Shown piece by piece: positions 19,344 to 51,970 of a stretch of DNA of 64,000 bases. The translations under genes and the position numbers were made by a program. The stretch is from assembly GCF_003439925.1 (NCBI RefSeq), contig NZ_QQRR01000001.1, positions 1,736,001 to 1,800,000 of the forward strand, in the 5' to 3' direction. The notes under the pieces were generated by a model. That model was not told where the DNA came from. It searched no databases and saw only the letters and a program-made list of their open reading frames with translations. This DNA comes from Haloprofundus halophilus. Lineage in GTDB: Archaea; Halobacteriota; Halobacteria; Halobacteriales; Haloferacaceae. Each line of letters begins with the position of its first letter. Position 1 is the stretch's first letter.

Positions 19344-20849
19344 GTGCGAATCTCCACAGCCCTCCACACCGGATTCCGCCTTCCGGACCGCTACCCCGTC
19401 GCCGTCCTGCCGTTTTACCTCCTGACGGCGGGCGCCGGCGTCGTCGCTCGCGTGCCGCTGTTCGTCGGTGTCGCCGTCGTCCTCGCCGTTCTCTCGTCGA
19501 GCGGCAGGCTCGATACCTTCGCCGAGCGCATCCAGCAAGTCGACTTCAGTGCGCTCAACGCCGCCGAACCGACCGAACCGACCGGCCTCGCCGAGGCGCT
19601 GGCCGTCGTCGTGACGCCGCTGACGGTCACCGTTTTCGCGCTCGCCGTGTTGGCGTCGGTCGCGGTCAGCCTCCTCGTCACGGCCGCCGTCCGTGCCGGC
19701 ACGCTGTCGGCGGTGCTCGCCGCAATCGACGGTGGAGACCCGACGCTCGAAGGCGTCCGCGGCGCGAGTCGGCTCTGGCTGTCGTTCGTCGGCTTCTCCC
19801 TCGTCAGGGTAGTGCTGTTCGGGGGTCTCCTCTCCGTGACCGTCGCCCTCGCCGCCGTGCTGCTCACGCTCGGCCCCGCGGGTGCGCTCGCGGCCGCCCT
19901 CGTGTCGCTCGTCGGCGTAGCGCTCGCGCTCGTCGTCGGTCTGTTGTTAGCGTTCACCGAGCAGTCGCTCGTCGTCGACGACGACGGACTGGCCGGCGCC
20001 CTCGGTGCGAGCGCCCGGTTCCCGGTTCGGCGACCCGTCGACTTCCTGTTCTACGTGCTCGTCGCCGCGGCGGCGCTCGTCGGCAACAGCGTCGTCGTCG
20101 GAACGGCCGGCTTTTTGGGCGCGACACAGGCGGGAGCGCTGCTGTCGATACTGCTCGTCTCGCCGATTTTCGACGGGTTCAAAACGTCGCTGTACGCCGA
20201 GCGCGGCATCGGTGAGCGCGACGGCGCGGGGAGCGGCGACCGACCCACGCGGCGGCGGCGCGTCGCCGCGAGTACGCGAGACGGTGTCAGCGCGCTCGGA
20301 CGGTTCGTCGTCGACCACCCGGGGTGGAACCTCGTCTCGACGCTCGTGCTGGCCGGCAGCATCCTCGCGGGCTACGCCGCGACGTCGGGGTACGGCGTCC
20401 GCATCGGCGCGTCGGGCGACGTCGCCGGCGTCTTCGGCGTCTTCCCGGTGGGCACGTTCGTCAACATCGCCGCGAACAACTGGCTCGTCGCCGCCGGCAG
20501 CGCGTACGGTGGTCTCGCACTCGGCGTCCCGGCGGCGGTCAGTCTGGCGTTCAACGGCGTGCTCATCGGTGCGCTCGCCGGAATCTTCGAGCTAGTGCCG
20601 TTTCTGGCGCTCGTCGCCCCGCACGGCGTCGTCGAACTACCCGGGTTGGTCGTCGCGGGCGCACTCGGACTGCATCTCGGTGTCGTCGGCTGGCGCGCGT
20701 ACCGGGGCCGCGACGGCGCGGCGACGGTGGCCGAGGCGCTCCGGTACGCGTTCCGCGTGCTCGTCGGACTGGCGGTCGTCTTCGTCGTCGCGTCGTTCGT
20801 CGAAGCGTTTCTGACCCCGCGAATCGCCGCGTTCGTGCTCGGAGGATGA
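19344..20849 (+). CDS. SpoIIM-domain multi-pass membrane protein
   Basis: A 501-residue integral membrane protein starting with GTG. The N-terminal half has about six hydrophobic segments (residues about 15-250). After a polar linker at about 285-320, the C-terminal part has the stage II sporulation protein M pattern: conserved NIAANNWLVA, LAFNGVLIGAL and APHGVVELPG, with four or five more helices. Archaea do not sporulate; SpoIIM-type proteins are widespread membrane proteins often next to DUF-type or ATPase genes, and the role here is unknown. Confidence 0.75.
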   Translation: MRISTALHTGFRLPDRYPVAVLPFYLLTAGAGVVARVPLFVGVAVVLAVLSSSGRLDTFAERIQQVDFSALNAAEPTEPTGLAEALAVVVTPLTVTVFALAVLASVAVSLLVTAAVRAGTLSAVLAAIDGGDPTLEGVRGASRLWLSFVGFSLVRVVLFGGLLSVTVALAAVLLTLGPAGALAAALVSLVGVALALVVGLLLAFTEQSLVVDDDGLAGALGASARFPVRRPVDFLFYVLVAAAALVGNSVVVGTAGFLGATQAGALLSILLVSPIFDGFKTSLYAERGIGERDGAGSGDRPTRRRRVAASTRDGVSALGRFVVDHPGWNLVSTLVLAGSILAGYAATSGYGVRIGASGDVAGVFGVFPVGTFVNIAANNWLVAAGSAYGGLALGVPAAVSLAFNGVLIGALAGIFELVPFLALVAPHGVVELPGLVVAGALGLHLGVVGWRAYRGRDGAATVAEALRYAFRVLVGLAVVFVVASFVEAFLTPRIAAFVLGG

Positions 20850-20975
20850 CGCGCTGACTGCGGCATCCGACCGCCGAACGACTAGCTCCGAAACACAGTT
20901 TGGCTGGTTTCCCATTCGTCGTCCCGTGGGTTTCGTTTTCTCCAGCACGAATGCCTAATTCGTTAGGGAAGAGAG

Positions 20976-21111
20976 TTTAATGGACAGAGATACTATCGAG
21001 ATATGCACAGCGCGGATGCGCCGGACCTTACACAGTTCGCGTGCCAACGAACTAGCCAAGCCATGCAGTCCCGGTGCGCCGCGTTACGGGGCACTCGCCT
21101 CGTTTTTCTCT
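20976..21111 (+). repeat. Structured repeat copy 1 (candidate non-coding RNA)
   Basis: The copy begins with gtttaatgg-like sequence and holds a conserved core at 21011-21083. Core folding: outer 5' arm cgcggatgcgccgga pairs with 3' arm tcccggtgcgccgcg (one G-U pair, one small bulge), enclosing the 6-bp hairpin AGTTCG-cgtgccaa-CGAACT and the single-stranded agccaagccatgcag. It ends in cgcctcgtttttctc, which could serve as a T-rich terminator. The plus strand is preferred because of the G-U pair, which would be a mismatch in the other strand, but this is weak evidence. Confidence 0.6.
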
Positions 21112-21320
21112 CGAACGTTCGTCTCCGAGCGACGCGCCTCGGTATCGGACGACGTCTGTCCTCCGCCGCGACCGCAGCGCCGGCCGCGAGGGTGTGGCTT
21201 CGGGAGCGTCGGCCGCGGGAGTGCCGGCAGCGAGAGCGCCGACCGCGAGAGTGTCGACTGCAACGACGTTACCCTCCGAAACGACCAATCGACCCGGAAC
21301 CTCATTTGTGTGGTACAGTC

Positions 21321-21466
21321 GTTTAGTGGATAGGGTCGCTACAGTAGTACGCGAGCACGGACGCCCCGGACCCATCACAGTTCGCGTGCCAACGAACTTG
21401 CCAAAGCCATGCACTCCGGACGTACCGTGTTTTGACGGGGCAGCGGCCTCGTTCTCCCCCATCCTC
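21321..21466 (+). repeat. Structured repeat copy 2 (candidate non-coding RNA)
   Basis: The core spans 21356-21429. The outer arms are cacggacgccccgga and tccggacgtaccgtg, which differ from copies 1 and 3 at several positions yet still pair; one position changes from G-C to A-U on both arms. The inner sequence has gaacttgccaaagcc in place of gaactagccaagcc, a one-base insertion that breaks any shared reading frame. The right part (cggcctcgttctcccccatcctc) is shared with copy 3. Confidence 0.6.
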
Positions 21467-21599
21467 GAACCAACGCCCGACGAGCGGTGCGTCTCGCGCC
21501 ACCGCGACCGGCGGTCGCTCAACACCCGTGCCGTCGCGTCGTCGGTTCTCTCGAACCGCACCCGCCGCGGACGATGACCTAATATATTTGGCGTCGTCG

Positions 21600-21743
21600 T
21601 TTAGTGAGTGGAGAAACAAGTCGTAGATGCGAAACGCGGGCGCACCCGACCCACCACAGTTCGCGTGCCAACGAACTAGCCAAGCCATGCAGTCCCGGTG
21701 CGCCGCGTTCGACGAGGCACCCGCCTCGTATCCCCCCATCCTC
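21600..21743 (+). repeat. Structured repeat copy 3 (candidate non-coding RNA)
   Basis: The core spans 21635-21707 with arms cgcgggcgcacccga and tcccggtgcgccgcg and the same inner hairpin as copy 1. A good TATA-like aatatatt at 21581-21588 lies 26 bp before about 21611, which would start a plus-strand transcript just inside this copy. The tail cgcctcgtatccccccatcctc matches copy 2. The copy ends about 90 bp before the stop of the convergent rhodanese gene. Confidence 0.6.
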
Positions 21744-21835
21744 ACAGACGCCGACCGCCGAGCGCGTCGCTCGGCGGTCGAAGAAAGAAGAATCGCGACG
21801 AGTAGTCGCCGAGTCGGTGTCGAGTCGGCAGTCGT

Positions 21836-22699
21836 TCAATCGTCGTTGCTGCCGGTCTCGACGGGTGCGCCGACGAGGTTGCCCCACTCGGTCCACGACC
21901 CGTCGTAGTTGGTGACGTTGTCGTAGCCGAGCAGTTCGTGGAGCGCGAACCACGCGATAGAAGAGCGCTCGCCGATTCGGCAGTACGCGATGACGTCCTG
22001 GTTGTCGTCGACGCCCTCGGACTCGTAGAGTTCGCGGAGTTCGTCGGCGGACTTGAACGTGCCGTCGTCGTTGACGGTGGCCGCCCACGAGATGTTGCGA
22101 GCGCCGGGGACGTGGCCGCCGCGCTGTGCGGTCTCCTGCAGTCCCGGCGGGGCGAGAATCTCGCCGGAGAACTCCTCGGGCGAGCGAACGTCGACGAGTG
22201 GCAGACCGCGGCCGATGGCTTTCTCGACGTCGTCGCGGTAGGCGCGGATGGACTCGAACGGGCCGCGAGCGGCGTACTCCTGCTCGGGGAACTCCGGGAC
22301 CTCGTCGGTCGTCGGGTGGTCGTTGTCGACCCAGTAGTCGCGGCCGCCGTTCATCAGGCGGACGTCCTCGTGGCCGTAGTACTTGAACTGCCAGTAGGTG
22401 TAGGCGGCGAACCAGTTCGAGTTGTCGCCGTAGAGGACGACCGTGGAGTCCTCGCTGATGCCGTGAGAGCCGAGGAGCTCCTCGAAGTCCTCCTTGTCGA
22501 GGATGTCGCGGGTCGTCTGGTCCTGCAACTGCGTCTCCCAGTTGAAGCCGATCGCGCCCGGAGCATGACTCTCGTCGTACGCCTCGGTGTCGACGTCGAC
22601 TTCCACGAGTCGGTACTCGGGGTCGTCGCTCCCGAATTCGTCGAGATGGTCTTCGACCCAGTCCGCCGAAACGAGAACGTCTTTTGCGTAATCTGCCAT
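21836..22699 (-). CDS. Thiosulfate/3-mercaptopyruvate sulfurtransferase (double rhodanese)
   Basis: A 287-residue two-domain rhodanese that moves sulfane sulfur from thiosulfate or mercaptopyruvate to a thiol acceptor. The C-terminal domain holds the active-site loop with Cys240 (AYCRIGERSS). The N-terminal domain has Asp in the equivalent loop (LYGDNSNW) and is a structural, inactive domain. It begins MADYAKDVLVSADWVEDHL at 22699; a minus-strand TATA-like sequence near 22727-22733 fits a leaderless start. It is divergent from a second rhodanese gene, with a 231-bp shared promoter region. Confidence 0.9.
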   Translation of the reverse strand: MADYAKDVLVSADWVEDHLDEFGSDDPEYRLVEVDVDTEAYDESHAPGAIGFNWETQLQDQTTRDILDKEDFEELLGSHGISEDSTVVLYGDNSNWFAAYTYWQFKYYGHEDVRLMNGGRDYWVDNDHPTTDEVPEFPEQEYAARGPFESIRAYRDDVEKAIGRGLPLVDVRSPEEFSGEILAPPGLQETAQRGGHVPGARNISWAATVNDDGTFKSADELRELYESEGVDDNQDVIAYCRIGERSSIAWFALHELLGYDNVTNYDGSWTEWGNLVGAPVETGSNDD

Positions 22700-22930
22700 C
22701 GCGTGCGTGGCTACGTACTCCGGGAGCATAACCCTCACACCCCCGGCATGTACGGCCGTTCGAGCGAAGTACCGGAGATTTTTGCAGAAATCACCCCGTC
22801 GAGCGATTTATTCCGATGTTGCGCGGCTGACGAATCGGCGAGTCCCAGCGTTTTTTGCTGGTAAATGGGACGAGGGTCAGTCGTGGCCGCGACGAGGGGA
22901 GCTAAATCCCGTCCGTTCGTAACCCGTTAC

Positions 22931-23794
22931 ATGTACGAGAACGCCGTCGTCGCTCCGACGTGGCTCGCCGACCGACTGGACGAGGTCCGCGTTGTTGACG
23001 TGCGCGACGGGTGGGAGTTCGACGGTATCGGTCACCTCCCGGGAGCGGTGAGCGTCCCGTTCGACGACTTCCGCAGCTCCGCAGGTGATGAAGGAATGTT
23101 ACCTGGTGCGGAGACGTGGGAGGCGCTCTTGGGCGAGGCCGGCATCGCGACCGACGACCACCTCGTCGCCTACGACGACACCCACGGCGTCTTCGCCGCC
23201 CGCTTTCTCGTGACCGCCGAACTGTACGGCCACAACACCGACCGCCTCCACCTGCTCGACGGCGACTACAGTTCGTGGAGCCGCGAGTACGAGACGACGA
23301 CCGAGACGCCCGACCCGGAGCCGGCGACCTACGAGGTTCGACGCCCCGACTCGTCGCCGCTCGTCGACTACGAGACGGTGCTCGACAGCCTCGACGACGA
23401 CGGCGTGGTCGTCGTGGACACGCGCGAATCGTGGGAGTACGACGAAGCACACGTCCCCGGCGCGGTGCAACTCGACTGGCGCGAGTTCGTCGACGACGAG
23501 ACGCGAGGGTTGAAATCGACCGACGAACTGGAGTCGATTCTGGCCGACCACGGCGTCTCCGCGGACCGACGAGTGCTTCTGTACTGCAACACCGCCCGCC
23601 GCATCAGCCACACCTACCTCGTGCTCCGACACCTCGGCTACGAGGACATCGCGTTCTACGAGGGGAGTCTCACCGAGTGGAAAGAACGCGGTGGTCCGCT
23701 CGAAAGCGGCGGGGAGAACGACGAAGGCGGCGGAGAGAGCGACGAAAGCGACGGAGAGAGCAACGAAGGCGACGAGAGAGGGGAGGAAAGCTAA
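22931..23794 (+). CDS. Second double rhodanese with acidic repeat tail
   Basis: A 287-residue sulfurtransferase with catalytic Cys219 in LYCNTARRIS and an inactive N-terminal domain (AYDDTHG, Asp in place of Cys). The active loop CNTARRIS differs from CRIGERSS of the divergent partner, which suggests a different acceptor or donor. The last 32 or so residues (from about 256) are a Gly/Glu/Asp/Ser tail of repeated GES(D/N)E units encoded by GA-rich repeats. The ATG at 22931 is about 26 bp after a TATA-like gctaaatc at 22899. Confidence 0.88.
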   Translation: MYENAVVAPTWLADRLDEVRVVDVRDGWEFDGIGHLPGAVSVPFDDFRSSAGDEGMLPGAETWEALLGEAGIATDDHLVAYDDTHGVFAARFLVTAELYGHNTDRLHLLDGDYSSWSREYETTTETPDPEPATYEVRRPDSSPLVDYETVLDSLDDDGVVVVDTRESWEYDEAHVPGAVQLDWREFVDDETRGLKSTDELESILADHGVSADRRVLLYCNTARRISHTYLVLRHLGYEDIAFYEGSLTEWKERGGPLESGGENDEGGGESDESDGESNEGDERGEES

Positions 23795-51897: not shown

Positions 51898-51970
51898 AGT
51901 CCCATGGGGTAGTGGCCAATCCTGTTGCCTTCTGGGGGCAACGACCGCGGTTCGAATCCGTGTGGGACTA
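51898..51970 (+). tRNA. tRNA-Gln (anticodon CUG)
   Basis: 73 nt fold into a complete cloverleaf. The acceptor stem AGTCCCA/TGGGACT is perfect with discriminator A. The D arm begins ggggtagtggcc. The anticodon stem TTGCC/GGCAA holds the loop ttctggg with anticodon CTG after U33. The T arm is CGCGG-ttcgaat-CCGTG with one G-U pair. CCA is not encoded. A T-rich stretch (ttttcctcactttt) directly after the gene may be the terminator. The tRNA borders an accessory segment. Confidence 0.93.

Follow-up and report, generated by a model that had tools for sequence, protein, structure and literature searches.

The region between a gene for a SpoIIM-domain membrane protein and a convergent gene for a two-domain rhodanese in Haloprofundus halophilus contains three diverged copies of a structured repeat, and the question it raises is whether these copies are RNA genes and, if so, how they might act. 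Judging from genome comparison, they are probably three paralogous, separately transcribed small non-coding RNA genes of about 105-150 nt, acting in trans by means of a loop.

Three copies at one locus

A preliminary description had placed three cores at 21011-21083, 21356-21429 and 21635-21707 of the 64,000-nucleotide stretch analysed here (the window), with CACAGTTCGCGTGCCAACGAACT and neighbouring sequence in common. These positions hold, and the shared sequence forms a 51-nt family at 84-86% identity, but the units are longer than the cores, extending to about 105-110 nt with a second hairpin and possibly to about 150 nt. Copies 1 and 3 match at 79% over 111 nt. In the whole 3.47-Mb genome of this haloarchaeon the element is present at three sites only, the next best match having E = 0.19. 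The features of the locus are listed below, with the 5' end of copy 1 (21003) placed by promoter spacing.

19347..20849, plus strand: SpoIIM-domain membrane protein, upstream flanking gene (Pfam PF01944, E 1.5e-22)
20954..20967, plus strand: copy 1 upstream element CCTAATTCGTTAGG, perfect palindromic arms, possible regulator site (conservation)
20976..20983, plus strand: copy 1 TATA-like box TTTAATGG (position kept in 15/15 copies)
21003..21111, plus strand: candidate RNA gene copy 1, presumed 5' end to second-hairpin tail (alignment, folding)
21009..21026, plus strand: copy 1 outer stem P1, 5' arm (MFE structure)
21034..21053, plus strand: copy 1 invariant hairpin AGTTCG-CGTGCCAA-CGAACT with the loop motif (alignment, folding)
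21068..21085, plus strand: copy 1 outer stem P1, 3' arm (MFE structure)
21086..21103, plus strand: copy 1 second hairpin P3, then a T-rich run, terminator-like (sequence, folding)
21300..21313, plus strand: copy 2 upstream element CCTCATTTGTGTGG (conservation)
21322..21329, plus strand: copy 2 TATA-like box TTTAGTGG (conservation)
21348..21457, plus strand: candidate RNA gene copy 2, most diverged, with CACGG/CCGTG outer stem (alignment, folding, tree)
21353..21370, plus strand: copy 2 outer stem P1, 5' arm (MFE structure)
21379..21398, plus strand: copy 2 invariant hairpin (alignment, folding)
21415..21432, plus strand: copy 2 outer stem P1, 3' arm (MFE structure)
21434..21453, plus strand: copy 2 second hairpin P3, then C/T-rich tail CTCCCCCATCCTC (sequence, folding)
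21578..21591, plus strand: copy 3 upstream element CCTAATATATTTGG, the AT-rich stretch of the preliminary description (conservation)
21600..21606, plus strand: copy 3 TATA-like box TTTAGTG (conservation)
21627..21734, plus strand: candidate RNA gene copy 3 (alignment, folding)
21630..21650, plus strand: copy 3 outer stem P1, 5' arm (MFE structure)
21658..21677, plus strand: copy 3 invariant hairpin (alignment, folding)
21692..21711, plus strand: copy 3 outer stem P1, 3' arm (MFE structure)
21712..21729, plus strand: copy 3 second hairpin P3 (ACGAGGC-ACCC-GCCTCGT), then ATCCCCCCATCC (sequence, folding)
21836..22738, minus strand: two-domain rhodanese (sulfurtransferase), downstream flanking gene (Pfam PF00581)

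Two divergent rhodanese-type sulfurtransferase genes adjoin the triplet (window 21836-23794). SpoIIM-type and rhodanese genes are also adjacent, without the RNAs, in other genera; in genome G018, for example, they are about 49 nt apart.

Exactly three tandem copies occur at the same site in all five Haloprofundus genomes sampled, spaced 232-376 nt apart, and the sister genome of Haloprofundus marisrubri SB9 has the same triplet. A mobile repeat or MITE would be dispersed and have terminal repeats, and a fixed set of three at a single conserved locus in five genomes does not fit that description. In a tree of the 15 copies, grouping is by position (support 100/99 for copy 2, 88/83 for copy 3 and a weaker 62/82 for copy 1), which indicates that the triplication is older than the genus and that the copies have been kept apart. 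Around every copy three blocks are conserved while the spacers have diverged. The first is CCTAAYNTRTTNGG, the second is GTTTAGTGG, with its TTTAGTG 8 nt away in the downstream direction, and the third is the stem-loop unit ATGCGAA(A)CGCGG...CAGTTCGCGTGCCAACGAAC...GCCAAGCCATGCA...CCGCGTTCGACG, located 26 nt past the start of TTTAGTG. Beyond this unit come the second hairpin and a C/T-rich tail. Copies 1 and 2 are also followed, after roughly another 25 nt, by a patch of weaker conservation, GAGCGAYGCGTCTC. A second conserved patch, GAGCGRYGCGTCTC or a CGAGCG...CGCTCG hairpin, is found 3' of each copy (21125-21145, 21480-21500 and 21755-21780), and the one after copy 3 may also serve to terminate the rhodanese gene that converges on it.

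Promoter-like elements and predicted structure

The TATA-like box, TTTARTG, lies 26 nt upstream of the presumed RNA 5' end in all 15 copies, and 8 nt before it is an upstream element that reads CCTMAYNTRTNNGG in nearly all of them. Although the sequence between box and stem is variable, the distance is fixed. Constant spacing with variable filler is the pattern to be expected of an archaeal promoter with its start site, and it is from this pattern that we infer transcription. About 50 nt upstream of each presumed start there is an imperfect palindrome with the consensus CCTAAN4TTNGG. The aatatatt that had been described as TATA-like before copy 3 is indeed an AT-rich stretch, but it is the copy 3 version of this palindrome, CCTAAYNTRTTNGG, the conserved TATA-like box being TTTARTG. 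The two-block pattern of palindrome and box occurs in the genome only at these three sites, and across 146 genomes of the family only at the Haloprofundus sites and in one further match that is likely due to chance. Since the combination of palindrome and TTTAGTG box is unique in the genome, a dedicated regulator may bind at the palindrome. Archaeal activators often bind about 50 nt upstream of the start, and the placement of the palindrome thus makes regulated transcription likely, with the palindrome presumably playing an activator-type role.

The three cores fold into one shape, as first proposed, comprising a long interrupted outer stem, an inner hairpin (AGTTCG-cgtgccaa-CGAACT) and a second hairpin (e.g. 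GACGAGGC-ACCC-GCCTCGT), after which the sequence in most copies is C-rich, not T-rich. In RNAalifold, the plus strand of the 15 copies scores 3.1 SD better than column shuffles, with 2 of 400 shuffles as good, while the minus strand is poorer than its shuffles (z +1.5). The outer stem pairs in 93% of cells, and sliding the pairing by 1-3 columns reduces this to 32-40%. Earlier claims about the stems fared unevenly. The last inner-stem pair was thought to be intact in copy 2 only, but AGTTCG/CGAACT is intact in all three copies. Because these arms never vary in the genus, the inner hairpin provides no evidence of covariation, and the covarying stem that had been claimed comes down to one pair of the outer stem. 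The double change there between CGCGG/CCGCG and CACGG/CCGTG is real (10 copies with G-C and 5 with A-U, in five genomes) and goes back to one event, on the copy 2 branch of the tree. In an R-scape-like test coded for this analysis, in which substitutions were relocated along the tree, pair 12-87 is significant (E about 0.005-0.01), in line with the covariation check that had been suggested. As the significant pair reflects one event, covariation within the genus is real but thin.

The structure matches none of the recognized RNA classes with which it was compared, and the preliminary description likewise knew of no named family. Rfam 15 yields no match at the gathering cutoff in the window or among the relatives, and permissive Rfam scans yield two sub-threshold matches at E > 0.6, or none. 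ARAGORN places no tRNA or tmRNA at the RNA copies, its only prediction in the window being a tRNA-Gln at 51898-51970. On inspection, the 15-copy alignment contains neither the invariant RUGAUGA/CUGA blocks of a C/D box guide RNA nor the conserved ACA/ANA 3' of the outer stem that would mark an H/ACA guide RNA. There is also a segment, GUGCCAGC, that we take to resemble 16S helix 18; this is probably a coincidence.

Relatives of the loop in other haloarchaea

The covariance-model search that the preliminary description had called for was run against 146 genomes of the family and 392 of the order, but the outer-stem model matches only Haloprofundus. An unfiltered run of the same model on gene-neighbourhood regions from 14 further genomes gives only noise. 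An exact scan for the strict motif in 84,980 species genomes finds only Haloprofundus and three unrelated bacteria. With the outer-stem model empty outside the genus, any wider family rests on a loop of about 16-20 nt and a similar architecture. Such relatives were found by searching 392 Halobacteriales genomes for the 20-nt hairpin with 2 mismatches allowed. A hairpin with the same two differences, CAGTTCGCGTGCCAGCAAAC, is present in one genome of the same family (G006), in one genome of a second family (G362, family f7) and in 24 of the 25 genomes fetched from a third (f17, at a guess Haloarculaceae); in the 25th, the hairpin end is CAGCCAAC. Chance is a very unlikely source of an identical 20-mer in three unrelated genomic contexts. 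Since reversed-pattern controls also match a small number of times in the same genomes, isolated matches, such as those in G235 and on the C40 contig of G055, can be due to chance. On the H. marisrubri contig C40 (L203:3619-3640), a 14-nt start of the motif is followed by AGGTACTG just after a methyltransferase-like ORF; it lacks a member-like fold and may be a chance match.

In the members of this wider group, the loop motif CAGTTCGCGTGCCARC tips stems of unrelated sequence. The hairpin sits on a longer stem in an intergenic position, with a promoter-like box upstream. Its 5' side, CAGTTCGCGTGCCA, is identical in every member. In the inner stem, CAG/CTG is mostly kept and the 3' side changes, while outer stems differ in sequence and keep their pairing. 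The f17 genomes have a single RNA gene between tatC and a PP-loop gene, with its own TATAACTAAGG box. Here GCGTTCGCGCC...GGGTGCGAACGC encloses two hairpins, TAGCT-CGCGTGCCAGC-AGCTA and GCAGTT-CGCGTGCCAGCA-AACTGC, and thus each RNA has two loops. This RNA is near-invariant over about 95 nt across genera, and the adjoining intergenic DNA is far less conserved (L167-L191). In G006 the RNA has a TAGGCTCC...GGAGCCTA stem and is located between a DUF7344 gene and glmS.

A GGCTCCCG...CGGGAGCC stem is shared by G362 and by plasmids of Natrialbaceae (Halomontanus, Haloterrigena, Halostagnicola, Natronorubrum, Natrononativus and Halosolutus), of which 11 records matched and nine were examined in full. 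Family f7 is probably Natrialbaceae, given the resemblance of its RNA to that of Halomontanus. On these plasmids the RNA usually comes directly after a DUF7344 wHTH gene; this gene and a TFB gene are divergent, and glycosyltransferase or beta-helix genes are nearby. In Haloterrigena alkaliphila, RNA and DUF7344 gene are about 2.7 kb apart. A Haloprofundus halobius plasmid carries an extra copy, CCGTATCGCCAGTTCGCGTGCCAAGCAGCTCGATACGG, between DUF7344 and glmS genes (L263:4718-4770). Haloprofundus sp. MHR1 and H. salinisoli carry these genes on plasmids that lack the motif, which may have been lost or replaced there. A plasmid module of TFB, the DUF7344 winged-helix gene, the loop-motif RNA and glycan genes recurs (L261, L270-L277, L263-L265, L198:4800-5530), the glycan genes encoding glycosyltransferases, beta-helix proteins and glmM/glmS. 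A literature search found no mention of DUF7344.

Two comparisons bear on whether these relatives belong together. A sequence model built without Haloprofundus has 17 matches in 160 kb, among them all 15 Haloprofundus copies (E 0.002-0.004); the other two are the H. halobius plasmid copy and the C40 site. When 35 chance occurrences of the motif are taken for comparison, family members also prove to fold more stably (Mann-Whitney p = 5.5e-5; the members are not independent of one another). Matches in viral contigs served as controls in this folding comparison. There are 57 such matches to the 16-mer, with unremarkable folds, and they look like chance, plausibly as coding DNA antisense to Leu-Ala-Arg-Glu-Leu. 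Phage records contained nothing meaningful. There appears, then, to be an unnamed RNA family with one invariant loop on differing stems in at least three haloarchaeal families, and it probably controls other genes.

Alternative readings and possible mode of action

It is extremely unlikely that the copies encode conserved short peptides. Copies 1 and 3 begin with ATG and QFACQRTSQAMQSRCAA is common in one frame, but the ATG is missing there in some copies, stops break the frames, and 1-nt indels located between invariant blocks put even orthologues out of frame (in copy 1, for example, GAAC-TAGCC versus GAACTAAGCC). The indels exclude a shared peptide on either strand, where the preliminary description had called conserved peptides unlikely, and no single frame with synonymous changes is kept among the copies. 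The conserved unit could instead be a DNA element, such as a protein site or a recombination or replication hairpin, and palindromes and hairpins repeated in one intergenic region, with several relatives on plasmids, would suit this. However, the folding signal is strand-specific, the stem, loop and tail sit downstream of a TATA-like box in independent lineages, relatives occupy different contexts on plasmids and chromosomes, and in the genome there is no mobile element and no spread past one locus, all of which make a DNA element very improbable. Nearly every lineage seen has a same-strand gene upstream (SpoIIM-type, tatC or DUF7344), as would be expected of cis-acting 3'-UTR or terminator structures. 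Yet these upstream genes are unrelated to one another, each of the three tandem copies has its own promoter-like block, and the distance of about 2.7 kb in Haloterrigena alkaliphila fits poorly, so that a cis-acting role is improbable as well. The best reading is still a non-coding RNA family, on the combined grounds of the missing frame, plus-strand folding, the covarying pair, fixed spacing and relatives that keep the loop.

How such RNAs would work is a separate matter. They may be classical base-pairing sRNAs, in which the loop, the unpaired GCCAA/GCCAUGCA or the C-rich tail pairs with mRNA start regions and blocks or promotes translation. The unpaired stretches are conserved, the tail CCCCCAUCCUC is complementary to the SD/AUG-like GAGGAUGGGG, and several sibling copies are typical of such sRNAs, as outlined in PMC4211561. 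However, a loop identical across families, plasmids and chromosomes is unusual for an mRNA seed, and an insertion makes the distance from GCCAA to CCATGCA variable. The genome has no other site complementary to the unpaired 13-nt GCCAAGCCATGCA at up to 1 mismatch, and this speaks against extended antisense pairing through that segment. On balance, base-pairing with mRNAs is rather unlikely.

In the trans-acting model that we prefer, the long outer stem would display the hairpin with the invariant motif CAGUUCGCGUGCCARC. The Haloprofundus RNAs would also show the unpaired GCCAAGCCAUGCA, and the second hairpin and pyrimidine-rich tail may form the 3' end. The same loop on unrelated stems suggests that function probably resides in the loop, with the stem serving only as a scaffold. 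That the loop stays constant over three families, whether on plasmids or on chromosomes, suggests a conserved partner, which the loop would most likely bind in trans. It is quite possible that this partner is an RNA-binding protein, sequestered or delivered as with multi-loop regulatory RNAs, and a protein is a likelier partner for the loop than mRNAs bound by base-pairing. The loop is displayed repeatedly, through three genes in Haloprofundus and through two loops in each f17 RNA, which is consistent with a protein being sequestered or delivered.

Known systems offer several points of comparison. Like the Haloferax sRNAs from RNA-seq studies, for example PMC5892119 and PMC5852579, these RNAs are intergenic and haloarchaeal; in a comparison at genome level, the family has no match among the Halobacteriales genomes sampled except in the lineages named here. 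Sibling bacterial sRNAs, such as those of Neisseria and others reviewed in PMC4211561, likewise have several near-identical genes, sometimes in tandem, and invariant unpaired segments with diverging stems. The RNAs described here differ in that they are archaeal, have no sequence relation, are without an Hfq-type U-rich terminator and have a loop that is constant across families. A partner or mechanism is known for few archaeal small RNAs, and the sharply defined, probably decisive loop, the small size and the presence in several cultivated haloarchaea would make a trans-acting archaeal RNA mechanism directly testable here. The plasmid tie to DUF7344, TFB and cell-surface glycan genes suggests the pathway to examine first. 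In CsrB/RsmZ-type RNAs, hairpins repeatedly display one loop motif and sequester a protein. The present family differs in having no GGA-loop array and only one or two loops per RNA, with a CsrA-type partner that is hypothetical, but it is similar in the repetition of its loop, through three genes in Haloprofundus and two loops per RNA in f17. More tentatively, it may be that this family is an archaeal counterpart of CsrB-type control, in which an invariant loop on unrelated scaffolds sequesters or delivers a dedicated RNA-binding protein and, on plasmids, is linked to DUF7344 regulators, an extra TFB and glycan genes.
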